NCBI GenBank assembly: GCA_021818425.1
Contig: JAKAEC010000004.1
Coordinates: 1-64,000 of the forward strand
Origin: Pseudomonadota bacterium
Lineage (GTDB): Bacteria; Pseudomonadota; Alphaproteobacteria; Acetobacterales; Acetobacteraceae
Length of the DNA stretch: 64,000 nucleotides
Direction: 5' to 3'
Part shown: piece by piece, positions 1 to 16,461 of the stretch
Position numbering within the stretch: the first letter of the stretch is position 1
How the letters are laid out: each line of letters opens with the position of its first letter
Translations under genes and position numbers: made by a program
The notes under the pieces: model-generated
What the model was told of the DNA's origin: nothing
The model's database searches: none
What the model saw: only the letters and a program-made list of their open reading frames with translations

Positions 1-1260
1 TCATGAAGCTGTATGCGGACCATAATAGGGGCCGCGTACAACGCGCTGCGGCCAACCGCCGTTCAGCCGTGCGGCAAGATGGCGCTGGATGAGCCAAACG
101 GGCTCTTCCAGATGACTAAGTGGCCCCTGCCTGGCAAAGCTGGATTTGAGACCAGCCTGCACGGCGCGGTTTACTTCCATGTCCTCAACGTGGAAGTTCC
201 TCAGTAGTTCCTTCTCGGCCTCTAGCGTGGCGGCAAAGTTTGGTGAGACCATGGCTTCACGGGTGACCAACGTCATGGTCTGCAATCGGCAATGCTCCGC
301 GCCCAAAGGAAACAGGCGATACCAAAGCAACCTATCCGGCATCGTAAGGAACATAAAGAAAGGATGCCCAACAAATAGCCCCCATTCTTTGGTCTGTGTG
401 CTGGTAATGCCGTCAATCAACATGAATCCGGCGGGCTGGTCGCCGCGTACCTTCGCCGCGTCGATCTCCGCGCAGAACTTGGCTGTGAAGGGCAGATGAG
501 CATGCACGTAGAATGGGTGCTCAGGCTCCGTCCACGTATTCTGCCCTGGCATGATCGGGTTCAACGTCGTACGGTGGGCACCGATATGGTGGTAGGATTC
601 CATCCAATTCTCCACCATTACTTTCCAGTTGAAGGCACAGTCCCAATCCATGCTAATGACGATCTGCATCTCCTCGAACCGCCAGGGGGCAAGCAGCTCA
701 TCAAGGTCGCCGTAAACCTCGACAAGCGGTGGAGCCGTACCGTCGAAATTCACAAATACGAAGCCGTTCCAGATTTCGCTGCGCACTTCGCCCAATGGCC
801 AATCCTGCTTGGCGAAGCCCTCCGCCTGCTGCATATGCGGGCAACTGCGCAGCTTGCCGTCCATTTCGAAGGACCAAGAATGATAAGCGCAAACAAGATG
901 AGCGGCGTGGAGGCGACGGGGAAATCCATTCTCCAGTGCAATCATGTCCAGATTCCGGTGCGGACAGACACGAGAGAGCACATGCACGTTGCCCGCCGCA
1001 TCACGCGTAACCACCAACGGCTCCCCCAGCATATCCAAGGCCAGGCAGTCGCCGGTTTGCGAAACCTCCGAAACACGCGCAACGCATAGCCAACCGGCGC
1101 GGAAGAGCTTCTGCTCTTCCAACTCATAAAACCCCGCAGAAAGATAGGCCCCTGCGGGCAATGACCGTGCCCTGGCCAAAGGAACCGAGGCCGTCTCGGC
1201 GACACGTACGCAAAGGGCGGAAATCTCGTCGAATACCACATTGCCTCCATCAAAGTGCAA
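1..1260 (-). CDS. Rieske [2Fe-2S] aromatic-ring-hydroxylating-type oxygenase, alpha subunit
   Basis: 419 aa ORF; Rieske motif CPH-RNLD...CAYHSWSF (CxH...CxxH); downstream catalytic domain with NWKVMVENWMESYHH (mononuclear Fe His motif). Confidence 0.9.
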   Translation of the reverse strand: MHFDGGNVVFDEISALCVRVAETASVPLARARSLPAGAYLSAGFYELEEQKLFRAGWLCVARVSEVSQTGDCLALDMLGEPLVVTRDAAGNVHVLSRVCPHRNLDMIALENGFPRRLHAAHLVCAYHSWSFEMDGKLRSCPHMQQAEGFAKQDWPLGEVRSEIWNGFVFVNFDGTAPPLVEVYGDLDELLAPWRFEEMQIVISMDWDCAFNWKVMVENWMESYHHIGAHRTTLNPIMPGQNTWTEPEHPFYVHAHLPFTAKFCAEIDAAKVRGDQPAGFMLIDGITSTQTKEWGLFVGHPFFMFLTMPDRLLWYRLFPLGAEHCRLQTMTLVTREAMVSPNFAATLEAEKELLRNFHVEDMEVNRAVQAGLKSSFARQGPLSHLEEPVWLIQRHLAARLNGGWPQRVVRGPYYGPHTAS

Positions 1261-1431
1261 TGAAATTCACAAATGCCGACTGATCCTGGATCGAAATGGA
1301 TTTGCGCAGTCAATCGATCACGTGTTATCCGGGGCCAGGCTGCCACACCGAGGCAGATTATTCATTAGTCCGTGGCGTCAAAATAGTCTTTTTGGGAAGC
1401 AAGGTTGCCAGAACGTGCAAGCAAGGGACTT

Positions 1432-2370
1432 TCATACGCCCATCGCTAGCCCATATTCGTGCGCCAGCTCGGTAAGGACATTCAAAGCTGACGGGGAGAG
1501 AGGCGCGCGCGCGCGTGTGGCGAGCTCAAACTCTACCGCATAGCCAAAACGGCGGGGCTGTACTGGGCGCAGCGGCAAAGCAAAGTGCGTGGCCCGTACG
1601 TAATGGTCCGGCAGATAGCCGATATAGCGGCCGGTGAGCACCAGTAGGGCTACACCCTCAACGTCATTTGCCGTGGCTGTGCGAACGAAGCCGCCGGCAA
1701 GCTGCCTAGCTTCGTCCTGCTCGGCATAACTACGGCCCACCACCTCGCAGCCCATCAGCATTTCCACTGGGACCTCATCCGGACAATAACTGTAAAGCGG
1801 GTGCGTCTCTGCGCAATAAAGATTGTTCTGCTCGGCATAAAGAAAGCGATAATTTAACCCTGGCAAACGCTGGTGTACGGGGACGATGGCGGCATGCAGC
1901 CGCTCCTCCAGCACGGCCTTTTCCAGGAGATTCGGCGGGTCGACGCAGATGTTTACCTGCGCGCGCGGAGCCCGACGCTTGGCCGCAGCCAGCACTCGTG
2001 GCAGGCGAAAATTCGAATCCGTCACCAACGTATCGATAAGACCAAGATTGAAGTCGCCTGTTATCTCCGTGTGGATATTGTTTATCCTCTCGCGAAAACC
2101 TTCCAATGCGCTCAACAATTGCCGCACCGCCGCCAACACGGAACGACCCTGATCTGTGAGCGCGAACCCGCCGCGCCCACGTCGACAAAGTGTTACGCCA
2201 AGCCTCGTCTCCAGCGCTTTCAGCTGCTTACTGATGGTGGAAAGCCCCACTTGAAGTTCCGCCTCCGCCGCGGTGAAGCCGCCCGCCTCTGCCACCGTAG
2301 CGAAAAGCCGCAGCAGCCGGAGATCAACATCGCCCAAATTGCCTCTAAAGGGTGCCGGCCTGCGGGACAT
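1432..2370 (-). CDS. LysR-family transcriptional regulator
   Basis: 312 aa; N-terminal HTH (DLRLLRLFATVAEAGGFTAAEAELQVGLSTISKQLKALETRLG) and LysR substrate-binding domain. Confidence 0.92.
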   Translation of the reverse strand: MSRRPAPFRGNLGDVDLRLLRLFATVAEAGGFTAAEAELQVGLSTISKQLKALETRLGVTLCRRGRGGFALTDQGRSVLAAVRQLLSALEGFRERINNIHTEITGDFNLGLIDTLVTDSNFRLPRVLAAAKRRAPRAQVNICVDPPNLLEKAVLEERLHAAIVPVHQRLPGLNYRFLYAEQNNLYCAETHPLYSYCPDEVPVEMLMGCEVVGRSYAEQDEARQLAGGFVRTATANDVEGVALLVLTGRYIGYLPDHYVRATHFALPLRPVQPRRFGYAVEFELATRARAPLSPSALNVLTELAHEYGLAMGV

Positions 2371-3709: not shown

Positions 3710-5023
3710 ATGGCAAGTAAGAAATTTCATCTGGGTTGGTTCATGAATTTTACCCCGGATGAATGGCGCGAACCGTTTGGCCAGGGCGGTACACCCTGGG
3801 ATGGTCAGTTCTATATCGAAATGGCACAAACCTTAGAGCGAGCATGCTTTGATTACATCATGATCGAGGACAAGTTAATGGTCTCGGAAACCTACGGCGG
3901 CTCGCGCGAGCTTGGCCTACGCAGCGGCGTCATGGCACCTAAGCACGACCCAGCACCACTGGCCGTCGCCATGGGCATGGCGACAAAACATCTCGGTGTC
4001 GTTGCTACAATGTCCACCCTCGCCTACCCACCGTTTCTAATGGCACGACTGTCCTCGACCATCGATAGCCTAATCAAGGGACGCTTCGGCTGGAATGTAG
4101 TTACAAGCGCTGAAGATCTTGCTGCGCAGAATTTCGGGTTGGATAAGCTGCCGCCGCGTGAACTGCGCTACGAGATGGCCGAGGAATATATGGAGGTGAT
4201 GGGCAAGCTGTTCGACAGTTGGGAGCCGGACGCTGTGGTTCGCGACCACGAAAGAGGTATTTACGCCGACCATACCAAAGTTCGCCCCATCAATCATCAA
4301 GGCAAATACTTCAAAGTGCGCGGCCCGCTGAACACGGTTCGATCCCCGCAAGGTCGCCCTGTGTACCTCCAAGCTGGCGCCTCACCACGCGGGCGAGACT
4401 TCGCCGCCAAACATGCTGATTCTATTGTTTCCGTGGCCAGCGGCGTGGAATCGATGAAAGTCTTCCGGGACGATATACGAGCGCGTGCCGCTGCCGTTGG
4501 ACGCGACCCTGACAGCATTAAGGTCATGTTCTGCGTTACCCCAGTACTTGGCGAAACCAATGACAATGCGCATGAGAAATTGCACCGTCGACTCAATACC
4601 CCACAATTCATCGACGACATGCTGGCTTCCATCTCCGCCATCACCGACATCGATTTTTCTAAGTTTGATCTAGAACAACCGTTGCCAGAAAAGCTCGTTA
4701 CCAATGGTGAGCAAGGCTCTCTGGACAAGTTTCAACAATGGGGATCCGGCAAAACCCTGCGGCAGTTAGTGGTTGATGGCGCGGGGGGAATGGTCTCGTC
4801 TGTCGAGCTGATCGGCACGCCAAAATCCGTGGCGGAGCGCATGGCGGAGGTGATGGAGCAAGTCGGAGGAGATGGCTTTCTAATCACTACACCGGTTCTA
4901 AGGGTTGGTCGGCACTATCTTGTGGAAGTAGCAGACGGGTTAGTTCCTGAGTTGCAGCGCCTGGGTTGCGTGCGCACCGCATATACACACCAACTGCTTC
5001 GCGAAAATTTGCGGGAATTCTGA
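3710..5023 (+). CDS. FMN-dependent monooxygenase, NtaA/SnaA/DszA (bacterial luciferase-like) family
   Basis: 437 aa; typical N-terminus (FHLGWFMNFTPDEWREPFG..PWDGQFY), GRFGWNVVTS, GRPVYLQAGASPRGRDFAAKHAD motifs. Confidence 0.9.
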   Translation: MASKKFHLGWFMNFTPDEWREPFGQGGTPWDGQFYIEMAQTLERACFDYIMIEDKLMVSETYGGSRELGLRSGVMAPKHDPAPLAVAMGMATKHLGVVATMSTLAYPPFLMARLSSTIDSLIKGRFGWNVVTSAEDLAAQNFGLDKLPPRELRYEMAEEYMEVMGKLFDSWEPDAVVRDHERGIYADHTKVRPINHQGKYFKVRGPLNTVRSPQGRPVYLQAGASPRGRDFAAKHADSIVSVASGVESMKVFRDDIRARAAAVGRDPDSIKVMFCVTPVLGETNDNAHEKLHRRLNTPQFIDDMLASISAITDIDFSKFDLEQPLPEKLVTNGEQGSLDKFQQWGSGKTLRQLVVDGAGGMVSSVELIGTPKSVAERMAEVMEQVGGDGFLITTPVLRVGRHYLVEVADGLVPELQRLGCVRTAYTHQLLRENLREF

Positions 5024-5030
5024 ACTGGTT

Positions 5031-5045
5031 TGGCATCCTTTTTGC
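5031..5045 (+). promoter_or_regulatory. Putative sigma-54 (RpoN) promoter upstream of ABC transporter
   Basis: TGGCAT-CCTTT-TTGC; GG and GC doublets with exact 10-nt spacing; about 65 nt upstream of the SBP start. Confidence 0.55.
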
Positions 5046-5110
5046 GTTGTTATTTTTTGTAAACCGCTCCTTCTACAACGACTTTGCCTTCTGTTCATAA
5101 GAGGATTTTC

Positions 5111-6106
5111 ATGAAACGGGCTTTCAAACTGACATCCCTGCTATCCGCCGCAGCACTTTCGCTTCTAATCGGCGTGTCGGCTAAGGCTGAAACACCGTTG
5201 CGCATTGGCTTCAGCGACTGGCCCGGCTGGACCGGCTGGCAGATCGCCATCGACAAAGGCTGGTTCAAACAGGCCGGCGTTGACGTTGACATGCAGTGGT
5301 TTGACTATTCTGCGTCACTAGATGCCTTTTCTGCAGGCAAACTTGACGGCGATTTCGTTGCCACCAGCGATGCCTTGGCCGAAGGTGCGAACGGGACAAA
5401 GAATGAGCTGATCATGCTTACCGATTATTCAAGCGGTAACGACCAGATTTTAGCAAAGCCCGGCATTACCAACATCAAGCAACTCGCCGGGCAGAAGGTC
5501 GGCATTGAAGTCGGATTGCTCGAGCAGATGCTGCTCGACCATGCGCTAAAAGCCAACGGCATGACATTGAATTCGGTTCAACTCGTCAACACTGTTACAA
5601 ACAACACGCCGCAGGTACTGGCTTCCGGCGCTGTCGCCGCTATCGGCGTCTGGCAGCCAATTGCCGACCAGGCACGCCTCGCCTTACCTGGCGCGCACGC
5701 CATTTACACGTCGGCCCAGGCACCCGGGTTGATCTATGACGGACTGATTGTCACGCCGCAGAGCCTAGCCGAACGTCCGCAAGATTGGGCGAAGGTGATT
5801 AAGGTATGGTACCGCATCGAAGCCTACATCAACAATCCGAAAACTCATGCGGAAGCGTTGAAGATTATGGCCGCGCGCGACGGCGTATCGCCGCAAATCT
5901 ATCAGCGTTATGTGAAGGGCACACATCTGCTTAGCGTCGAGGAAGCCAAGGCCGCCTTCGTGCCTGGCCCTGGACTGAACTCCATCTACGGCTCCGATGC
6001 CAACGCCGATGCCTTCAACGTTCGCAACGGTGTTTATAAAACACCCCAGAATATCAAGGATTACATCAACAGCTCTTTGATAGACGCCTATAAGGAGAAC
6101 CATTAG
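5111..6106 (+). CDS. ABC transporter substrate-binding protein of urea-carboxylase-region (NitT/TauT-like) type
   Basis: Signal peptide MKRAFKLTSLLSAAALSLLIGVSAKA; PLRIGFSDWPGWTGWQIAIDKGWF..GVDVDMQWFDY..SLDAF resembles periplasmic proteins next to urea carboxylases; ORF opens at 5084 but 5111 ATG has the SD and signal peptide. Confidence 0.85.
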   Translation: MKRAFKLTSLLSAAALSLLIGVSAKAETPLRIGFSDWPGWTGWQIAIDKGWFKQAGVDVDMQWFDYSASLDAFSAGKLDGDFVATSDALAEGANGTKNELIMLTDYSSGNDQILAKPGITNIKQLAGQKVGIEVGLLEQMLLDHALKANGMTLNSVQLVNTVTNNTPQVLASGAVAAIGVWQPIADQARLALPGAHAIYTSAQAPGLIYDGLIVTPQSLAERPQDWAKVIKVWYRIEAYINNPKTHAEALKIMAARDGVSPQIYQRYVKGTHLLSVEEAKAAFVPGPGLNSIYGSDANADAFNVRNGVYKTPQNIKDYINSSLIDAYKENH

Positions 6107-7122
6107 TGCTGAATGCGTTGGAGATCGCGGGCACCAAACCGGTCCTCTCCGAAACTGGTGACGCGGTGCCAGGACAATGGTTCCGGGTCCGCGCGCCGTT
6201 ATCGCGGCGGCTGCGAATACTCCTTGCCGTTTTCTCCTTCCTGCTACCGCTCGCGGTTTGGTCCGCCGTAAGCTACGTTCCGTTCATTTGGCATCCGGAT
6301 ATGCTGATCTCAAACCCCGGTGATGTCGATTACCTTATGCCCGGCATGCGCGTGAAAAAGGCGACATTTGCCTTGGAAATCGCCAACGCTAAGGCCAACC
6401 ACGCAGCGCCCCCTCAGGGCATACCATGCAACCCAGTTTATCTGCCGGCACCAGGCGAAGTGCTGAAGGCATTCTACACTTCGTTTACCACCCCACCACG
6501 GGATCAGAATGGATTATGGCTACATCAGAGCCTTTGGCAAAGCATCCAGACAATTTTTTGGGGCTTCGTGATCTCCTCGCTTATCGGCGTACCGCTTGGA
6601 ATACTTTGCGGATCGCATAGCGGAGTGGCTAAACTTGTTGAGCCATTCATAGAGTTCTTCCGCTATCTCCCCGCCCCGGCCTTCGGCACTCTGGCAGTGG
6701 CAGTGCTTGGCATCTATGCTGGACCAAAGATTGCCATCATTGTCATCGGTACGCTGTTTCAGCAAATCCTGATCATCGCCAATACGACCCGTAAGGCGGA
6801 CTTCGCGCTGGTGGAAGCAGCCCTCACGCTGGGTACGCGCAACCTACGACTTCTTACCAGCGTCATCATTCCCAGCGTGCTGCCGGACCTCTACCGGGAC
6901 CAAAGAATTCTACTCGGCTGGGCCTGGACATATCTAATTGTGGCCGAGTTAATCGGTGCCACCAGCGGAATTTCGTTATTCATCACTCAGCAATCGCGCT
7001 ATCAGCATTACGCCAATGTCTACGCAGCCATCGCGATGATCGGCATTCTGGGACTGGGTACAGATTTGGTTCTAGCCGCCCTCGGACGCAAACTCTTCCC
7101 CTGGGATAAGGCCGCCGCATGA
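6106..7122 (+). CDS. ABC transporter permease (NitT/TauT-like)
   Basis: 338 aa, GTG start; BPD_transp_1 features, EAALTLGTRNLRLLTSVIIPSVLPDLY. Confidence 0.88.
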   Translation: MLNALEIAGTKPVLSETGDAVPGQWFRVRAPLSRRLRILLAVFSFLLPLAVWSAVSYVPFIWHPDMLISNPGDVDYLMPGMRVKKATFALEIANAKANHAAPPQGIPCNPVYLPAPGEVLKAFYTSFTTPPRDQNGLWLHQSLWQSIQTIFWGFVISSLIGVPLGILCGSHSGVAKLVEPFIEFFRYLPAPAFGTLAVAVLGIYAGPKIAIIVIGTLFQQILIIANTTRKADFALVEAALTLGTRNLRLLTSVIIPSVLPDLYRDQRILLGWAWTYLIVAELIGATSGISLFITQQSRYQHYANVYAAIAMIGILGLGTDLVLAALGRKLFPWDKAAA

Positions 7123-8018
7123 GCTCCAGTATGATCTCCTATCTCGAACAGCCTATCGATGTGCAGGCGCGTCTGGCCCGGCTCAAGGCTCGAAATATCA
7201 TTCTCAGCGTTGAAGATCTTAGCAAGAGCTTTGCCTCGAGCAAGGACGAAATTATCGCTCTTGAATCGCTGTCTTTTAGTACCCATCAGCGTGAATTTCT
7301 TTGCGTGATCGGTCCGTCTGGCTGTGGCAAATCTACCCTGGCGCGTATTCTTGCAGGGCTAGAGCCCGCCAGCGGCGGCGTGGTGCGACTGGATGGAAGG
7401 CCCGTGCAAGGCCCAGGACGCGAGCGCGGCATGGTTTTTCAGGGCTATACGCTGTTTCCTTGGCTCAGTGTGCGGCGCAATGTGATGTTTGGCTTGCGCA
7501 TGGCCAATATCAGCAAAGCGGAAGCGCAGCGCCAAGCAGATGAATGGCTGGCACTGGTGGGGTTAGAGAAGTTTGCCGATGCGTACCCGCATCAGCTCTC
7601 GGGGGGCATGAAACAGCGTGTGGCAATCATCCGAGCGTTGGTGAACCGCCCACGCGTGCTGCTGATGGACGAGCCGTTCTCGGCCCTTGACGCGCAAACT
7701 CGCCAGCGCATGCAGGCTTATTTGCTAGAAATTTGGCGAAAGGTGGATATCACCATCATCTTCATCACCCATGATCTGGATGAAGCCGTGTTTCTGGCAG
7801 ACCGTATCCTGGTTCTGGACGCACACCCCGGCCGCTTGCGGGAAATGATCGAGGTCCCCTTACCCCGACCGCGCGACGCCGCACAACTCGCGAGCCCGGC
7901 TTTCATCGCAACCAAGGCCCGGCTGGAAACGCTGATCCATGGCACCGCAACTAATGGGGAGGATGAACCTTACCCCACCGTTCCCTTGCTAACGAATGTA
8001 AGTGACGAAGTGGAATAG
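7119..8018 (+). CDS. ABC transporter ATP-binding protein
   Basis: Walker A GPSGCGKST, signature LSGGMKQRVAI, Walker B VLLMDEPFSALD; overlaps the permease stop. Confidence 0.95.
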   Translation: MSSSMISYLEQPIDVQARLARLKARNIILSVEDLSKSFASSKDEIIALESLSFSTHQREFLCVIGPSGCGKSTLARILAGLEPASGGVVRLDGRPVQGPGRERGMVFQGYTLFPWLSVRRNVMFGLRMANISKAEAQRQADEWLALVGLEKFADAYPHQLSGGMKQRVAIIRALVNRPRVLLMDEPFSALDAQTRQRMQAYLLEIWRKVDITIIFITHDLDEAVFLADRILVLDAHPGRLREMIEVPLPRPRDAAQLASPAFIATKARLETLIHGTATNGEDEPYPTVPLLTNVSDEVE

Positions 8019-8021
8019 CTT

Positions 8022-9806
8022 CTACTTAACCTGAGACGCCCCCCAGTAGGCGCGCCAGCCGCCATGAGCGGTAATGTCCGCCGCCCCTTCTAACGCATAA
8101 GCCTCACACAGGAAGCCGGGATGCACGGAACCGTCCTCCAGCGTCACGCGGCCGATGACCATTGGGGCGGGCAGAGTGGCCACAAAATGGCCAAAGGCGG
8201 ACGGACTGAGGCTCCACAATTCGACCGCGATGCCGGCACCAGAAAAACCGGGCGTTTGCGCTAGCCCAGGCTTGGGCGGGTTCGTGGCCAGGGCGAAGAG
8301 CCGGTAGTCTGGTGCTGTGAAAGCCGGGCGGATGAGCCGGGCACCTAGACTGGTGAGTTCATGGTTTAGCACCATGCCAGAGAGATGGGCACCAGCGACT
8401 ACGAGGCTGACCTCATTCGACGGCCCTTCGTAACGCCCGTAAGGCTCAGCCCGGGTGAGGCCCGCCCCAGCGCCCAGGGCATTGTGCAATTTATCGGCGC
8501 AGACCGCCAATGAGGCTTCCGAGAAGGCAGGGCCGATGAGGGTAACGCCAAAAGGCAAGCCATCTGGCTTGAACCCGGCCGGCAGGGCGATGGCGGCCAT
8601 ATCCAACAAATTCACGAAATTGGTGTAGAGGCCGAGGGTTGAATTGTGCTTTACAGGCTCGGCCAACATTTCTTCAATGGTGAAAATGGTAGGAGCCGTA
8701 GGCAGCAGCAGCGCGTCGCATTTGACAAACTCCGCCATTGTGAGTTGACGCAGGGCCTGGACCTTGTAGATATCGTCAAATGCATCAGCGGCTGAGAATT
8801 TATGGCCGCCTTCAATAATGGCGCGGACCACGGGGAATACATCATCCGCATGACGCCGCATGAAAGCACGAGTGGCAGCGGTGCGCTCAGCCAAGAAGGC
8901 GCCCCCATAGAGCAGCGCAGCAATATCACGGAAGGGTGCATAATCGATCTCCACCAATTCCCACCCCAAAGCTTTGGCCTTGCCCAGGGCGGCTTCGTAG
9001 AGGGCGAAGGCTGCTACGTCTCCGGCAAAATCCTTGTCTTTTCCAGCCAACACGCCCAGGCGTGGAACGGCAGGCAGAGGATGGTTGGCGGGGGGACGGG
9101 AATAGGCGTCTGACGCATCATAACCTTCAGCGGCACTTAGCACCGCCATCGCATCCGCCACGCAATTAGCGAAGATGGAAATGCAGTCCAGGCTCTTGCA
9201 GGCGGGCACAACACCGGTGGCAGAGAGGCGGCCGATCGAGGGTTTAAGCCCAATGAGGTTGTTGAAGGCGGCGGGTACACGACCCGAGCCGGCGGTGTCC
9301 GTGCCCAGGGAGAAGGCAGCTAGGCCAGCACCCACGGCTACTGCCGAGCCGGAAGAGGAGCCGCCGGATACATAAGCGGTATTGAACACCGAGCGCGGGG
9401 CGCCATAAGGGGAGCGCGTACCATTCAGCCCAGTGGCAAACTGGTCCAGATTTGCCTTGCCTATAAGCAAGGCGCCCGCGGCGCGCAGGCGGGCGATAGT
9501 GGTGGCGTCCTGCTCTGGTATATAGGCAAAGGCTGGGCAGGCCGCGGTGGTGGGCAGACCCGTGACGTCTATATTATCCTTGACCACGTACGGGATGCCG
9601 TACAGCGGCTTACCCGCCGAGCCTTCCAATTCAAGTTTCGCTGCTTCGGCCAGCAGATTTTCCGCTTTTACCAGAGAGATGAAGACCGCTTTGTCAGAAT
9701 AGGTGGCGATGCGCGCCAGAAAGGTTTTCACCAGCGCCGTAGGCGTTATCGTTCCTGCTTCGTAACCAGACCGGATGGCCGAGAATTCAAGAAGATCTAG
9801 GGTCAT
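8022..9806 (-). CDS. atzF: Allophanate hydrolase
   Basis: 594 aa; amidase-signature domain (GSSSGSAVAVGAGLAAFSLGTDTAGSGRVPAAFNNLIGLKPS) plus C-terminal allophanate hydrolase domain. Confidence 0.92.
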   Translation of the reverse strand: MTLDLLEFSAIRSGYEAGTITPTALVKTFLARIATYSDKAVFISLVKAENLLAEAAKLELEGSAGKPLYGIPYVVKDNIDVTGLPTTAACPAFAYIPEQDATTIARLRAAGALLIGKANLDQFATGLNGTRSPYGAPRSVFNTAYVSGGSSSGSAVAVGAGLAAFSLGTDTAGSGRVPAAFNNLIGLKPSIGRLSATGVVPACKSLDCISIFANCVADAMAVLSAAEGYDASDAYSRPPANHPLPAVPRLGVLAGKDKDFAGDVAAFALYEAALGKAKALGWELVEIDYAPFRDIAALLYGGAFLAERTAATRAFMRRHADDVFPVVRAIIEGGHKFSAADAFDDIYKVQALRQLTMAEFVKCDALLLPTAPTIFTIEEMLAEPVKHNSTLGLYTNFVNLLDMAAIALPAGFKPDGLPFGVTLIGPAFSEASLAVCADKLHNALGAGAGLTRAEPYGRYEGPSNEVSLVVAGAHLSGMVLNHELTSLGARLIRPAFTAPDYRLFALATNPPKPGLAQTPGFSGAGIAVELWSLSPSAFGHFVATLPAPMVIGRVTLEDGSVHPGFLCEAYALEGAADITAHGGWRAYWGASQVK

Positions 9807-12800
9807 CAGTGCGCCTCCGAGGCAATCACGCCAAGGCGTTGCCCGGCGCGGATGGCTTGACCTGGAACGGCGCTGAGCGAGGAGATGCGGCCTGAGGAGA
9901 CAGCCCGCACTCGCACTTCCATCTTCATCGATTCCAAAATCATCACCACATCCCCGCGCTGCACCAGGGCGCCGGGTTCGGCTAGGATTTGCCAGATGCT
10001 GCCAGGCACCGGGGCGGCGATGGCACGGCTGCCGACGGGCAAAGGCATTTCCTCAGGTTCTGGGGCGATGTCCGGCTCCTCGAAACTATTCAGCCCTTTT
10101 AGGGCCCAATCCTCCCGCTCGGCAGCGAAGGCTGCACGTTGGCGGGTTTGAAAAGTAACAATGCTCTCAGCGTTTTCGGCGCAGAAGGCATGGTAGTCAC
10201 GTAGCGAGAACTGGCTTTCCTCGATACGCAGCTGATATTTGCCCTGAGGGAAAGCGTCCCTAGCTTCCAGAAGCTCTTCTTCGGAAACTTCTATGAACCG
10301 GATCCGGTCAAAATGCCGCAGCAGCCAGGGTTTGCCGGGTTCAAAGGGCGGTGTCTGGCGGTGCGTGTTCCAGACCTGTACGGTGCGGCCGAAAAGCTGG
10401 TAGCCGCCGGGTCCTTCCATGCCGTAGACGCACATATAGGCGCCACCGATGCCGACAGCGTTCTGAGGAGTCCAGGGTCGGGCAGGATTATATTTGGTGG
10501 TAACGAGGCGATGGCGAGGATCGTATGGCGTGGCGACGGGGGCGCCGAGATAAACATCGCCCAGCCCGAGCACAACGTAGGAGGCATCGAAGATGATGCG
10601 TTTCACGTCCTCAATGCTGTCCAGCCCGTTGATGCGGCGGATGAATTCGATGTTGTCCGGGCACCAAGGGGCATTGGGGCGAGTGGTCTCCTGATATTTG
10701 CGCATGGATAGGCGAATTTGGCTGTCGTTCCAGGAAAGCGGCAGGTAAACCGTGCGAGCCCTCACCACCATGTCTTCAGGTACTGGCATGGTGGGAAGAA
10801 GTTTTTCCATCGCCGCCAGCATTTTCATTGGTGTGGTCTGGGTAGAATCGAAATGAACCTGCAATGATCTGATGCCGGGAGTAAGGTCGACGACGCCCGG
10901 CAGCTTTGCTGCTTCCAGCGCGTCACGTAGTGCCTGGGCACGCAGGCGGAGTTCAAAATCCAGTTTCATTTCGCCGAATTCAATAAGAATGTCTTCATCG
11001 CCAGCGCGACGGACCACAACATCTTTGTGGGTAGAGATGATGGCGGGGGCGGTATCGGCACGGACGAAGCGGAGTTTGTCGCCTGGCTTGAGTTGGCCAA
11101 GTTTCCAGCGGTCTGCTTTGGTGACCACGGCAGGGCAGACGAAGCCGCCGAGAGAGGGCCCATCCGGGCCTAGCAGGATCGGCATGTCACCCGTGAAGTC
11201 TATGGCACCGATGGCGTAGGCGTTGTCATGTATGTTGGAAGGGTGCAGACCCGCCTCCCCGCCATCCCTCCGCGCCCATTCGGGCTTGGGACCGATGAGA
11301 CGCACCCCCGTGCGGGCGGAGTTGTGGTGCACTTCGTAGGTGGCCGCGAATATGGTAGAAATATCTTTATCCGTGAAAAAATCGGGTGCGCCGTGAGGGC
11401 CGTAGAGTACGGCAATATCCCAGTCGTGGAAGAAGGCGGGCGGTGTGAGCGGCGGTGTCGCCGGTACTGGGACCGACGGATTGAAGCGCAGGGTATCGCC
11501 CGCACGCAAGGCGTTGCCGGTGGCGCCGCCGAAGCCTCCGAGGGTGAAAGTGGCGGTAGAACCTAGATAGTCAGGAGCGCGGAAGCCGCCGGAGATGGCG
11601 AGGTAGGTGCGATGACCTGGGCCTTCGACCACTCCAAGCTCCAGCACTTGCCCCGCCTTCACGGACACGGGCTGGTGATAAGGGATGGGGGTTTCATCCA
11701 ACAGAGCAGGCATATGCGCGCCAGAGAGGGCGATGAGCGTGTCGGCAAAAAAGCGCAGAGTAGGCCCAGTGTGGGTAAGTTCCAGCGCCACCGCATCCAG
11801 CCTGTTACCAAGCAACGCGTTAGCGTGGTTGTGGTGGAGATCGTCCATCGGCCCGCTAGGGGGGACGCCAACTTCCCAGTAACCCAAACGCCCCGGCAGA
11901 CTTTGCAGGCTGGACTGCGCACCAGGGTCCAGCACCTCCGCAGCGTATGGCATGAAGGCAAAATTGGTAAGGCTACTTGTGGTCATTTCACCCGCGATAA
12001 AATCTGGCAGGGCTAGGATGGCCTGCAGATAATCGAGATTGGTCTCGATACCGAAAATCTCGCTCTGCTTCAGACCGGCCTGCAGATTGGCCAGCGCCTC
12101 CGCACGGCTGGGACCACTAGCAATGAATTTCGCCAGCATCGGATCGTAGAAAGGTGAAACGTCCGTACCGGCCTCTACCCACTTCTCCACGCGTAACGAT
12201 GGGCCGGGCTTAAAGGCGGTGATCATGCCGCTGGAGGGTGCAAAATTGTTGCCTGGATTTTCCGCGTAGATGCGAACTTCAATAGCCGCACCCTGCGGCT
12301 TGAGGGTCGCTTGTGCGGGAAGGGTAAGAGTGCCAGCTGCTTGCTCGATCATCCAGCGGACGAAGTCAACACTATAAATTTCTTCCGTCACGCCATGTTC
12401 GACCTGTAGGCGCGTGTTCATTTCCAGGAAGTAGAACTCTTGTACCTCGGCGTCGTAAATGAACTCAACTGTGCCCGCGGATTCATATTGCACGGATGAG
12501 GCAAGCGCGACGGCAGCGTTCTGCATCGCGGCCAAGGTGGCATCGAACAAATTGGGGGCGGGCGTTTCCTCCACCACTTTCTGGTTTCGGCGTTGGAGAG
12601 AACAGTCGCGCGCGCCAAAGGCGACTACACCACCCTTGCCATCACCGAAAATCTGCACCTCGACATGGCGGGCACGGACGACGTATTTTTCAAGGAACAA
12701 GGCGGCATTGCCGAAATTATTCTCTGCGAGGCGAGCGATGCTATCATATTTGTCCCCCAGCTCTACATTGTTGTGGCATAGCACCATACCAATACCACCG

Positions 12801-13285
12801 CCTCCGGCGCTGCTTTTCAGCATCACTGGGTAGGTGATGCGTTTGGCCTGGGCCAAAGCTTCCTCAAGCGTGGAGAGAACGGAGGTGCCGGGCAGCATGG
12901 GAACGCCTGCTTTTTGCGCAAGGTCTCGAGCGGTATGTTTCATCCCGAAACCCCGCAAATGTTCAGGCCGGGGACCAATGAATTTGATGCCAGAAGCGGC
13001 AAGACGTTCGGCGAACTCCACGCGCTCGGAGAGGAAACCATAGCCCGGATGCACGGCCTGCGCGCCCGTTTCCTGGCAAGCTCTGATGATGGCGTCGATG
13101 TTCAGATAGCTCTCGGCCGCTGATGGCGGGCCTATGCGTAACGCTTCATCCGCCGCCAGCACGTTGGGAGAAAAACGGTCGGCATCTGAATATACCGCCA
13201 CAGATCTAATGCCCATATCTCGCAGAGTGCGGCAGACACGTCCCAAAATTTCGCCACGATTGGCGATAAGAACTTTACTGAACAT
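9806..13285 (-). CDS. Biotin-dependent urea carboxylase / guanidine carboxylase
   Basis: 1159 aa; biotin carboxylase domain (MFSKVLIANRGEI...), AHS1/AHS2-type carboxyltransferase region, biotinyl motif ILESMKMEVRV; guanidine-I riboswitch upstream favours guanidine as substrate. Confidence 0.95.
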   Translation of the reverse strand: MFSKVLIANRGEILGRVCRTLRDMGIRSVAVYSDADRFSPNVLAADEALRIGPPSAAESYLNIDAIIRACQETGAQAVHPGYGFLSERVEFAERLAASGIKFIGPRPEHLRGFGMKHTARDLAQKAGVPMLPGTSVLSTLEEALAQAKRITYPVMLKSSAGGGGIGMVLCHNNVELGDKYDSIARLAENNFGNAALFLEKYVVRARHVEVQIFGDGKGGVVAFGARDCSLQRRNQKVVEETPAPNLFDATLAAMQNAAVALASSVQYESAGTVEFIYDAEVQEFYFLEMNTRLQVEHGVTEEIYSVDFVRWMIEQAAGTLTLPAQATLKPQGAAIEVRIYAENPGNNFAPSSGMITAFKPGPSLRVEKWVEAGTDVSPFYDPMLAKFIASGPSRAEALANLQAGLKQSEIFGIETNLDYLQAILALPDFIAGEMTTSSLTNFAFMPYAAEVLDPGAQSSLQSLPGRLGYWEVGVPPSGPMDDLHHNHANALLGNRLDAVALELTHTGPTLRFFADTLIALSGAHMPALLDETPIPYHQPVSVKAGQVLELGVVEGPGHRTYLAISGGFRAPDYLGSTATFTLGGFGGATGNALRAGDTLRFNPSVPVPATPPLTPPAFFHDWDIAVLYGPHGAPDFFTDKDISTIFAATYEVHHNSARTGVRLIGPKPEWARRDGGEAGLHPSNIHDNAYAIGAIDFTGDMPILLGPDGPSLGGFVCPAVVTKADRWKLGQLKPGDKLRFVRADTAPAIISTHKDVVVRRAGDEDILIEFGEMKLDFELRLRAQALRDALEAAKLPGVVDLTPGIRSLQVHFDSTQTTPMKMLAAMEKLLPTMPVPEDMVVRARTVYLPLSWNDSQIRLSMRKYQETTRPNAPWCPDNIEFIRRINGLDSIEDVKRIIFDASYVVLGLGDVYLGAPVATPYDPRHRLVTTKYNPARPWTPQNAVGIGGAYMCVYGMEGPGGYQLFGRTVQVWNTHRQTPPFEPGKPWLLRHFDRIRFIEVSEEELLEARDAFPQGKYQLRIEESQFSLRDYHAFCAENAESIVTFQTRQRAAFAAEREDWALKGLNSFEEPDIAPEPEEMPLPVGSRAIAAPVPGSIWQILAEPGALVQRGDVVMILESMKMEVRVRAVSSGRISSLSAVPGQAIRAGQRLGVIASEAH

Positions 13286-13291
13286 GGCTGC

Positions 13292-13906
13292 CTACTCGCT
13301 GACAATAATCTGGATGGCTGTGGGGGTGAAACCGTTGCAGGGGTTATTCACCTGCGGGCAGTTGGAAACGAGCACCAGCACGTCCATTTCCGCCTGCAAT
13401 TCCACATAGCCTCCGGGCTTAGAAACGCCGTCATCGACCGTGAGCTCTCCATTGGTATTGATGGGTACATTCATGAAGAAATTCACGTTGGAAACGAGAT
13501 CTCGCTTGCTCATACCGTATTTGGCAAGCTCGACGATAAAATTCTCCCGGCAGGAATGCATGAAACGTGTCTCATTCCCGAAGCGAACTGTATTACTCTC
13601 GCAGGAGCAGGCACCAGCGCAGGTGTCGTGAAAACCACAGCTGTCGGCAACAAGTTTCATCATCGGACGACATTCGTTGGAGAGCAACGTGGAACCGGTG
13701 GAAAGATCGTAGCGTCCACCATGCTCAACTTGAGCTGCCAACGTGTCCTGGGCGGAGTAGCGCTCTGTCGTATCATGTGAATTGTAGAAGAGCGCATCCA
13801 CCGCTTGCTGACTTTCAAGGTCAATAATACGCAGTCTCTGGCCCCTTTTCAGAAGAGTGGAATAGGGTGCGCCAGCAGGAACGTGAGTGTCAGAAATAAT
13901 GATCAT
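13292..13906 (-). CDS. Urea carboxylase-associated protein 2 (DUF1989; carboxyguanidine deiminase subunit-like)
   Basis: 204 aa; Cys-rich motif DSCGFHDTCAGACSCESNTVRFGNETRFMHSCRENF; operon position. Confidence 0.88.
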   Translation of the reverse strand: MIIISDTHVPAGAPYSTLLKRGQRLRIIDLESQQAVDALFYNSHDTTERYSAQDTLAAQVEHGGRYDLSTGSTLLSNECRPMMKLVADSCGFHDTCAGACSCESNTVRFGNETRFMHSCRENFIVELAKYGMSKRDLVSNVNFFMNVPINTNGELTVDDGVSKPGGYVELQAEMDVLVLVSNCPQVNNPCNGFTPTAIQIIVSE

Positions 13907-14685
13907 TTAGCGAAATACCGGTCGTTATTGATGAAACCACGCGCAGCTTCCTCAGTGAATTGGCGACAGAGATCATGAGCGCTGACTGTCGGGGCGCGCC
14001 AAGCGATATAAGAGATGGGGCCGGTTGCCTCCTGCACCGGGCTCAGCGCGTGCGGGGTATTGGAGATGGTAATCAGCAGATCCATCTCCGCGCGCAGCTC
14101 AACCATGGCACCCTGCGGCGGATTGTGACGCCAGCGTATGATACCTTGATTGTCTACCGCGACGGGGGAAAACAGAGAGATAGCGGGAGCGACATCGCGT
14201 CGGGAGAGACCAAATTTGGCGGCAGCACTGCGCAGATTGTCCCGCCCATTGCGGCCTTGCGTTTGCATGGGGCCATTAGGGCCGACAATGGAATCATGCC
14301 CGGCACCTGTATCTGCGACGATAGAGGCAAGCACGCGCCCCATGTCAGAAAAGAGCACGCGGCCGGTGGTGAGGTTGGTGGTCCATTGCAACTTGGTCGT
14401 GTCGCCGGCGTTGAAACGTTCGGAGGTATCTTCCGCGTTCCACATGAATAGGGTAGCACCCGGCGTACCGGATAAATTGGCGATGCGGACGGCGGCACCG
14501 CGCTGCAGACGTAAGTTCACATACCAACCGGGAGGAATGGCATCTTCTAAAAAAACATCTTCTGGCTTGATGTCTACGAATTTTGTTTCAGGCTTTGGGG
14601 CTATGGCACGGGCGTGAGCGGCCTCCTGCAAGGCTTCGTAGCGTTGGCGGTATTGCGCGGGGGTGAGTTTGTCGAGTTCAAGCAT
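13903..14685 (-). CDS. Urea carboxylase-associated protein 1 (DUF1989; carboxyguanidine deiminase subunit-like)
   Basis: 260 aa; DUF1989-type VLFSDMGRVLASIVADTGAGHDS...NGRDNLRSAAAKFGLSRRDVAPAISLF; overlaps UAAP2. Confidence 0.87.
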   Translation of the reverse strand: MLELDKLTPAQYRQRYEALQEAAHARAIAPKPETKFVDIKPEDVFLEDAIPPGWYVNLRLQRGAAVRIANLSGTPGATLFMWNAEDTSERFNAGDTTKLQWTTNLTTGRVLFSDMGRVLASIVADTGAGHDSIVGPNGPMQTQGRNGRDNLRSAAAKFGLSRRDVAPAISLFSPVAVDNQGIIRWRHNPPQGAMVELRAEMDLLITISNTPHALSPVQEATGPISYIAWRAPTVSAHDLCRQFTEEAARGFINNDRYFAK

Positions 14686-14725
14686 TCGCTTGTCTCCACT
14701 GCAGTATGTTTGAAAAGTTCGACAT
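14678..14725 (-). CDS. Putative 15-aa leader peptide ORF (MSNFSNILQWRQANA) in guanidine operon leader
   Basis: GGAGGG SD 6 nt before ATG; stop TGA overlaps the first codons of the UAAP1 gene. Confidence 0.4.
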   Translation of the reverse strand: MSNFSNILQWRQANA

Positions 14726-14766
14726 CAGAATCCCTCCGTTGAATAACTACGCTTCAACGATACGAA

Positions 14767-14811
14767 GGATACGGCTGAGAGCTGATGCGTATCCCGCGCA
14801 TCCTTACTCTC
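14767..14811 (-). promoter_or_regulatory. Riboswitch expression platform with mutually exclusive hairpins
   Basis: (a) GAGAG(14807-14811)/CTCTC(14777-14781) plus GATGCG(14797-14802)/CGCATC(14784-14789) versus (b) GGATACG(14788-14794)/CGTATCC(14767-14773); the two share bases. Confidence 0.6.
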
Positions 14812-14910
14812 CCGGGCTTTTGTCCCGCCGTGCATCATGCGGATATCTCCCACATGACCGCCGCTCTCGGACCAGACACTGGATGAATATCCAGCCGGAA
14901 CCCTAGCGGC
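14807..14910 (-). ncRNA. Guanidine-I riboswitch (ykkC class) aptamer
   Basis: Minus strand reads GCTAGGGTTCCGGC...TCTGGTCCGAGAGC...CACGGCGGGACAAAAGCCCGGGAGAG, carrying the conserved ykkC elements CTAGGGTTCCG, TGGTCCGAGAG and ACGG..GGGA.AAAAGCCCGGGAGAG. Confidence 0.96.
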
Positions 14911-14938: not shown

Positions 14939-14955
14939 GGCAATTATCGTGCCAA
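14939..14955 (-). promoter_or_regulatory. Putative sigma-54 (RpoN) promoter of guanidine operon
   Basis: TTGGCACGATAATTGCC; matches YTGGCACG-N4-TTGC with GG-N10-GC; predicted start about 14928 lies just 5' of the aptamer. Confidence 0.75.
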
Positions 14956-15101: not shown

Positions 15102-16361
15102 CTAAAACAGCCCCGCGCCAGAGAGACCGCCATAAACGCCTAGCCCGGCCGTAGTTGCCGAAAGCAGAATGGCGAGTCCGGCGTACCAGCCACGCAGCCG
15201 CATTTCAGCAGGCAGAGCCTTTAGTCCCAGCATCACCAGAAAGCCGAGCACCAGCGGTAGCAACAGCGCGTTCATTACCTCAACGGCAATATTCAAAATG
15301 ACAAGATTCGGCACCACCGCCACCAGCACAGCACCACACACCAGGCACGCCGCGTAGACGCCATAAAACCATTTAGCCCGGAAGGGGTGGTCCTCCAGCG
15401 ACCGACGATAGCCGGTAACCTCACCAAGCCCCCAGGCAAGTGCCAACGAGGCAACAATTGAAGCAACCAGCCCCGCCCCCAATACGCCGATGCCAAAAAC
15501 AAGTTTGCCCATGGTGACACCGAGATACGGAGTGAGCGCTGCCGTTATATCCCCAACGGTATTGAGGCTGGCGTTGGGGTTTTTCAGACCGATCGTGGCC
15601 GCAGTTGCGATCAGCACCGCCGCCATCACTAGCTGGGTAACAACTGAGCCGATGGCGGTATCCAACCGAGCATAGCGGAAATCCGCGAGGGACAATTTTT
15701 TGTCGGCGATGGCAGATTGTTGGTAGAAAATCATCCAGGGCATGATCACCGCGCCGATATTGGCGGCGACGAGGTAAAGGTAGTCCTGGTTACCCAAGGC
15801 AGGCTGCAGCATCTGAGCAGCGATTTGATGGCCGTTCGGCTTCGAGAGGAAAGCTATGACGAAAAAAACGAATTCGAACAGCCCCAACGCAATCGCCACC
15901 CGCTCCACTCGACGGTAAGAGCCCGTGAGAGCCACAACAAGCAGAAACAGCACAGATAGGCTCAGCGTGGCGTCACGCGGTACGCCATAGAGCTCGCCGA
16001 CACCGGCCACGCCAGAAAATTCAGACAGCAGCGCTCCGACCGTAGCCACCGCCAGCCCCCCGGCGGAAAGCCAAGCCCACCCCTCGCCAAACGTATCACG
16101 AATCAGCTCTCCGTGGCCTTTGCCGGTGAAGATGCCGAGCCGGACCGTAAGCTCTTGCACAACGTACAGGATGGGGATGAGCAAGAACTGCAGCAGTAAC
16201 AGCCGGTAACCCCAAGCCACGCCAGATTGAGAAGCAGTAATGATGCTGCCCACCTCGGTATCGGCCAGCATGACAACGAGCCCAGGTCCAAATACGGACA
16301 AAAAAGGCAGGGCGGCACGGCGAGCGGGCGAAGCAGACTGAGGCAAGACGGTTCCTGACAT
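15102..16361 (-). CDS. Nramp-family divalent metal transporter (non-canonical motifs)
   Basis: About 420 aa; FGPGLVVMLADTEVGSIITASQSGVAWGYRLLLLQFLLIPILY; multi-TM; ORF opens at 16421 but ATG 16361 fits family N-terminus better. Confidence 0.85.
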   Translation of the reverse strand: MSGTVLPQSASPARRAALPFLSVFGPGLVVMLADTEVGSIITASQSGVAWGYRLLLLQFLLIPILYVVQELTVRLGIFTGKGHGELIRDTFGEGWAWLSAGGLAVATVGALLSEFSGVAGVGELYGVPRDATLSLSVLFLLVVALTGSYRRVERVAIALGLFEFVFFVIAFLSKPNGHQIAAQMLQPALGNQDYLYLVAANIGAVIMPWMIFYQQSAIADKKLSLADFRYARLDTAIGSVVTQLVMAAVLIATAATIGLKNPNASLNTVGDITAALTPYLGVTMGKLVFGIGVLGAGLVASIVASLALAWGLGEVTGYRRSLEDHPFRAKWFYGVYAACLVCGAVLVAVVPNLVILNIAVEVMNALLLPLVLGFLVMLGLKALPAEMRLRGWYAGLAILLSATTAGLGVYGGLSGAGLF

Positions 16362-16366
16362 GCAAT

Positions 16367-16381
16367 TGAGAATAATTATCA
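16367..16381 (-). promoter_or_regulatory. Putative Fur-family operator
   Basis: TGAGAATAATTATCA, one mismatch to the 7-1-7 Fur box TGATAATnATTATCA, immediately upstream of the Nramp start. Confidence 0.6.
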
Positions 16382-16461
16382 ATAAGCGAGGCGGCGTAAT
16401 GCAGCCAGCCTTTCCTGTCAATGCAGAGCCGCGCCCCAGCGCCTGCCGGCGAGGGACCTAT

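Follow-up and report, generated by a model that had tools for sequence, protein, structure and literature searches.

A Guanidine-I Riboswitch behind a Predicted Sigma-54 Promoter in a Probable Guanidine-Nitrogen Assimilation Locus of Acidocella

The 64,000-nt stretch of DNA analysed here (the window) very probably holds an Acidocella locus for the assimilation of guanidine nitrogen, in which two inputs, nitrogen status and guanidine itself, would act in series; this two-input logic is read from the sequence. A predicted sigma-54 promoter, a guanidine-I riboswitch and a degradation operon follow one another on the minus strand, and a probable guanidine importer converges on the operon. The placement of a sigma-54 site before the riboswitch is widespread in the carboxylase-linked loci of Pseudomonadota. 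The host assembly is a 2.1 Mb draft, 86% complete, and its nearest named relatives are Acidocella species. An earlier note on this DNA includes neither the promoter nor the probable importer, and it does not speak of a leader that likely acts on translation.

The Guanidine-I Aptamer

The earlier note had proposed a guanidine-I (ykkC) riboswitch at 14807-14910, just before the carboxylase operon, and a covariance-model search as the check. The Rfam model RF00442 (Guanidine-I) matches the minus strand from 14917 to 14807 over its full length (model positions 1-107 of 107), with 91.6 bits against a gathering cut-off of 63 bits (E = 3.2e-15). The element is real, and only its 5' end had been misplaced: it is 7 nt longer on that side (14917, not 14910). 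The three ykkC motifs that had been quoted, CTAGGGTTCCG, TGGTCCGAGAG and CACGGCGGGACAAAAGCCCGGGAGAG, are present on the minus strand as written. In 13 aligned aptamers, that of the window included, CTAGGGTTCCG, CCGAGAG, CACGG and AAAAGCCCGGGAG are invariant; as in known guanidine-I RNAs, the aptamer is full-length and its core is conserved across the aligned homologues. Guanidine-I is the only Rfam family with a match at the gathering threshold across the 64 kb, and the search of the whole assembly (a MAG) found no guanidine-I element other than that at 14917-14807. The RNA is confirmed as an aptamer, and presumably it is a genuine guanidine-sensing switch.

The Degradation Operon and the Substrate of Its Carboxylase

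The aptamer ends 122 nt before an operon of four co-directional genes on the minus strand, encoding two DUF1989 subunits, a carboxylase and an allophanate hydrolase. The adjacent DUF1989 pair (both PF09347) is of the UAAP1 and UAAP2 types, each above its family cut-off: cgdA (13903..14685) matches TIGR03425 with 225 bits (cut-off 206) and cgdB (13292..13906) matches TIGR03424 with 308 bits (cut-off 285), and the two products are the assigned subunits of carboxyguanidine deiminase. The third gene, gca (9806..13285), encodes a biotin-dependent carboxylase of 1159 residues with the biotin site ESMKM at residue 1118. The last one encodes the allophanate hydrolase (8022..9806), with amidase and AH_C domains (PF01425, PF21986) and 749 bits to TIGR02713. 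Coordinates and family matches bear out the order UAAP1-UAAP2-carboxylase-allophanate hydrolase that had been described behind the riboswitch. The mislabelling foreseen for 9806-13285 is real as well: the carboxylase scores 1677 bits (cut-off 1304) with the NCBIfam family TIGR02712, which is named 'urea carboxylase'.

The paper that defined CgdAB, together with an aspartate rule for these carboxylases, is reportedly that of Schneider in 2020. As given in PMC11410670, guanidine carboxylases have Asp at the positions corresponding to 1330 and 1584 of Kluyveromyces lactis, and Asp1330 separates them from urea carboxylases; PMC12186494 likewise sets Asp (guanidine carboxylase) against Asn (urea carboxylase). 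The K. lactis urea amidolyase/urea carboxylase (5i8i/3va7) shares with the window enzyme the domain order biotin carboxylase, carboxyltransferase, BCCP. In the alignment of the two, D696 (codon 11198-11200) faces N1330, so that the window has Asp where K. lactis has Asn, and D910 (codon 10556-10558) faces D1584. Both diagnostic positions are Asp in 80/80 of the closest carboxylases in the species collection, and a guanidine-I element is present in 56 of these 80 loci. Taken together, the Asp pair, the DUF1989 pair, the allophanate hydrolase, the guanidine-I element and a urease encoded separately in the MAG support the claim, already made in the note, that the protein is a guanidine carboxylase instead of a urea carboxylase, its substrate being assigned from sequence.

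Like the guanidine carboxylase operons of P. syringae, Vreelandella boliviensis and enterobacteria, the operon combines the four enzyme genes and the diagnostic Asp residues with a guanidine-I element in front. It differs from them in that cgdA-cgdB-gca-allophanate hydrolase stand directly behind the riboswitch, the importer lies outside the riboswitch operon and there is no internal guanidine-II; a second guanidine riboswitch was searched for within the operon and was not found. In some other Acidocella loci, further genes lie between the riboswitch and cgdA: metallophosphoesterase-like, APC permease, nucleotidyltransferase-like and glutamine-synthetase-like genes (L034, 3818-8542; L140, 2552-7353), or a glutamine-synthetase-like gene alone (L115, 9973-11340).

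The minus strand also carries an Nramp-family transporter gene (15102-16421) upstream of the riboswitch. Its candidacy as a partner was dropped, because neither A. facilis nor the other Acidocella loci examined have it next to the riboswitch; its presence is probably incidental.

A Predicted Sigma-54 Promoter before the Riboswitch

A predicted sigma-54 (RpoN) -24/-12 promoter, TGGCACGATAATTGCC (14939..14954, minus strand), agrees with the consensus at 10 of 11 positions; 21 nt separate it from the aptamer, a placement in which the window differs from known guanidine-I elements. Sites were scored against TGGCACN5TTGCW, with the GG (-24) and GC (-12) cores required and the threshold set at 9/11 or better in the 100 nt upstream. 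TGGCAC-N5-TTGC or a near variant precedes every aptamer in the 10 Acidocella leaders compared. At the threshold, a site is found in all 10 of these leaders and in 50 of 54 other carboxylase-linked guanidine-I leaders (60/64), while mononucleotide shuffles give 0.34 expected sites in 64 leaders. Among 33,290 random 100-nt segments, taken from 3.3 Mb of single-strand sequence of the same 80 loci, 1.35% reach at least 9/11. The MAG encodes rpoN (PF04552, E 1e-65).

So that similarity to the window would play no part in the choice of loci, the count was repeated in 398 Pseudomonadota genomes sampled evenly, 57 of which contain guanidine-I and 56 the carboxylase. Outside the window's own genome, this sample holds 76 guanidine-I elements, of which 56 were classed as linked to the carboxylase, the last 16 from a reading of their listed coordinates. 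A sigma-54 site precedes 49 of these 56 and is not detectable before the other seven, counts that are not independent since many genomes belong to shared genera (the carboxylase-linked set fetched first comprises ~21 genera). By their downstream gene, the remaining 20 elements belong to 15 ABC importers, four EamA-type exporters and one guanidinase. Importer leaders have a site in 10/15 cases, or 10/11 where the genome has rpoN, and in 0/4 where no rpoN match exceeds the cut-off, rpoN having been checked in 14 of these genomes (directly in G134, G197, G266 and G378 and in the genomes without a site). The fifth importer leader without a site is that of G378, where rpoN is present and the best score is 8/11. 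No site was found before the exporters (0/4, only four sequences, with rpoN in two of these genomes) or before the sole guanidinase gene, although rpoN is present in that genome.

Because the spacer between site and aptamer ranges from 3 to 83 nt, conservation of the RNA alone does not account for the site. No NtrC-like site upstream was better than those of shuffled sequence, and NtrC as the activator is therefore a guess. In one operon region of G408 (G408:C1:136914-142969), and also in G392, G206 and G341, two to three guanidine-I elements are arranged serially, with a sigma-54-like site before each.

The control of this operon type by sigma-54 has a precedent; what appears to be undescribed is that it is combined with the riboswitch and that exporter leaders lack it. 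COG3665 is presumably the DUF1989 family. A survey published in 2025 (PMC12316311) lists COG3665 genes among those with a predicted sigma-54 promoter, 59% of them labelled urea carboxylase, so that sites before DUF1989/'urea carboxylase' genes had been predicted already. When nitrogen is limiting, an ntrC mutant of B. cenocepacia shows a loss of expression across I35_7282 to 7286 (log2 -6.0 for the 'urea carboxylase'); these genes are annotated as a urea carboxylase, the ABC periplasmic protein and "aminomethyltransferase" belonging to it, and a phosphodiesterase (PMC5491218). It is an operon of the gca type. The NtrC/sigma-54 regulon of B. cenocepacia (BCAS0267a to BCAS0272) and the COG3665 genes of PMC12316311 thus represent the same operon type under nitrogen control, and in the accessible portions of both sources, the genes are named urea carboxylase with no tie to guanidine or to a riboswitch. 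The open-licence literature, to which the search was confined (subscription papers being outside its scope), yielded no text tying guanidine riboswitches to RpoN, NtrC or sigma-54. The phosphodiesterase of the NtrC-dependent B. cenocepacia cluster may be compared with the metallophosphoesterase-like gene of Acidocella operons.

The Leader and Its Micro-ORF

The predicted expression platform (14728..14806, minus strand) has no U-tract. Its predicted structures comprise helix A (14802-14797/14789-14784), which the aptamer tail GAGAG extends by pairing with CUCUC (14781-14777), helix B (14795-14788/14773-14766), an alternative to helix A as the two share nucleotides, and an anti-Shine-Dalgarno helix (14769-14762/14739-14732). 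A Shine-Dalgarno sequence, GGAGGG (14732..14737, minus strand), lies 70-75 nt after the aptamer, in a region predicted to be paired with a probability of 0.93. It precedes a 15-codon micro-ORF (14678..14725, minus strand; MSNFSNILQWRQANA, then a stop), whose stop overlaps the start of cgdA (ATGCTTGA) and which is a probable translational coupler.

All 10 Acidocella leaders have a start codon with a Shine-Dalgarno sequence ~79-84 nt after the aptamer. In A. aminolytica, G011 and G012, the first gene begins at this start codon; in G014, the codon opens a longer ORF. In the other six (the window, A. facilis, G004, G005, G017 and G023), it opens an ORF of 13-15 codons with a stop that overlaps the start of the first gene. 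The peptide sequences are not conserved; hence, position rather than product seems to matter. In G004, the alignment reads as a change of the shared base from G to A with both of its partners changed from C to T (GATGTG/CACATC and GGGATACA/TGTATCCC). Such a three-way compensatory change would fit the requirement of a switch and is suggestive only, as one event in seven sequences; the leader model is based on these seven close sequences and this change. The leader seems to switch translation by way of the micro-ORF, and in this apparent mode, with an expression platform lacking an intrinsic terminator, the window differs from known guanidine-I.

An ABC Importer Convergent with the Operon

Three genes on the plus strand, convergent with the allophanate hydrolase gene, encode an ABC importer: a substrate-binding protein of the NMT1/SsuA type (5084..6106, PF09084), a probable guanidine binding protein, a permease (6106..7122, PF00528) and an ATPase (7119..8018, PF00005). 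A second sigma-54-like site (P2), TGGCATCCTTTTTGCG (5031..5046, plus strand), precedes the binding-protein gene with 9/11 positions; its equivalents in relatives score 9/11 (G001), 10/11 (A. facilis) and 11/11 (G012, G014). The genes at 5084-8018 were at first taken for an unrelated sulfonate-type transporter. Importer homologues that are 51-69% identical adjoin the carboxylase operon in Thiobacillus, Methylotenera and others, and those of Acinetobacter are 47-63% identical. A guanidine-I element lies upstream of a homologous binding-protein gene in six gca-linked loci (L062, L065, L070, L071, L077, L107) and also in G309 and G420. The permease type occurs in five of the 398 Pseudomonadota genomes, and in four of these the carboxylase or guanidine-I is its neighbour.

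Among Acidocella with the riboswitch directly before cgdA, the importer is found in 5/5 genomes, convergent in the window and in A. facilis and elsewhere in the assembly in G004, G012 and G014. It is absent where the riboswitch operon holds a different ABC importer (G011, G024) or an APC permease (G017, G023). The position of homologues directly behind guanidine-I, along with the importer's own predicted sigma-54 promoter, indicates that it is probably a guanidine importer, under the control of nitrogen status rather than of the riboswitch.

An NtaA/DmoA-type flavin monooxygenase gene (3710-5023, plus strand) lies directly upstream of the importer, as in all Acidocella loci with intact context (G000, G001, G012, G014 and A. 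facilis; also L112, L137, L138, L033). It was not found near homologous importers outside Acidocella, and neither a guanidine riboswitch nor a sigma-54 site was found in the search before this gene. A possible role of the enzyme is to free guanidine from an N-substituted form. Close to it, at the edge of the window (1-2370, minus strand), are ORFs resembling a Rieske-type ring-hydroxylating oxygenase and a LysR-type regulator.

Thiobacillus-type loci without guanidine-I (L044, 5604-8459; L147; L149) contain the importer, then creatininase-like, glutamine-synthetase-like and ribbon-helix-helix (NikR/CopG-like) genes, then cgdA, with sigma-54 sites before the importer. In G345 (L147 8011-12989), the importer, creatininase-like and glutamine-synthetase-like genes form a cassette, and the 18 kb examined contain neither carboxylase nor guanidine-I; this points to a role of the cassette beyond the carboxylase pathway.

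Alternative Explanations

The family name of TIGR02712 would fit a true urea carboxylase/allophanate hydrolase pathway, with the riboswitch merely an inherited leader. This is highly improbable: the Asn at K. lactis 1330 that marks urea carboxylases is absent from the window enzyme and from its 80 closest relatives, the DUF1989 pair is present, the leader is guanidine-specific, and the urease encoded separately in the MAG makes a urea carboxylase dispensable for the use of urea. It is somewhat less improbable, while still distinctly so, that the -24/-12 sites are due to chance or to another regulon and that the operon is not nitrogen-controlled. The missing NtrC-like site would be in keeping with such a case, as would the score of P2, only 9/11. 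Against it stand the enrichment (49/56 versus the 1.35% background), the variable spacing, which excludes conservation of the aptamer itself as the cause, the absence of sites before exporters and in rpoN-lacking genomes and the ntrC-dependent expression in B. cenocepacia (PMC5491218).

How the riboswitch acts and what the importer carries are less settled, each with a competing explanation that is unlikely without being far-fetched. According to PMC12186494, guanidine-I is usually a transcriptional ON switch, and intrinsic terminators were detected after 9/44 aptamers outside Acidocella; the riboswitch could thus act by termination, through Rho or an unrecognised terminator, the micro-ORF being incidental. 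In all 10 Acidocella leaders, that of the window among them, the search for a terminator-like structure after the aptamer found none, although with so crude a detector (9/44 elsewhere), a missing terminator is not claimed as special to Acidocella. The conserved position of the Shine-Dalgarno sequence in a region predicted to be mostly paired, and the overlap of the micro-ORF stop with the first gene in 6/10 leaders, argue for the translational switch. As for the importer, weak similarity to sulfonate-binding proteins would suit sulfonate or taurine, and the monooxygenase directly upstream in Acidocella would suit a substituted guanidine that this neighbour converts to guanidine. The G345 cassette, with no gca or guanidine-I nearby, means that the substrate may be broader than guanidine. 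The guanidine-I elements directly upstream of homologues in eight loci and the mutual exclusion with other in-operon importers point instead to guanidine as the substrate.

Proposed Mechanism

Under nitrogen limitation, an enhancer-binding protein, most likely NtrC, would activate the sigma-54 RNA polymerase, and transcription would start ~10 nt before the aptamer. Free guanidine would then fold the guanidine-I aptamer, whose identity is established and whose switching is presumed. With no guanidine, the GAGAG tail would pair with CUCUC, helix A would form and UCCUUCGU would remain available for masking the Shine-Dalgarno sequence; in the presence of guanidine, helix B would form instead and release that sequence. 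Ribosomes would then translate the 15-codon micro-ORF and, through the overlap of its stop with the cgdA start, reach cgdA. According to the functions assigned from the gene families, Gca (ATP, biotin) would carboxylate guanidine to carboxyguanidine, CgdAB would deiminate this to allophanate, and the allophanate hydrolase would yield two more ammonia and CO2. The convergent ABC importer, with its own predicted sigma-54 promoter and no riboswitch, would bring in guanidine. Import would thus track nitrogen status alone, while degradation would need both nitrogen starvation and guanidine.

Implications

The natural role of guanidine is still debated. The locus corrects a standard misannotation (urea carboxylase), and a probable guanidine importer family is named. 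A broad regularity is indicated, in which assimilation-linked guanidine riboswitches stand behind sigma-54 promoters and exporter-linked ones do not. In general, guanidine-I elements of nutrient use probably form the second input of an AND gate, with sigma-54 (nitrogen starvation) as the first, while those of export are not placed behind sigma-54; in Acidocella, this second input would be translational, via the coupling micro-ORF. Such a gate is a possible reason why these operons might stay silent in nitrogen-rich media despite added guanidine. If the general reading is true, the promoter type would provide a simple genomic test that tells, genome by genome, whether an organism treats guanidine as a nitrogen food or as a toxin.
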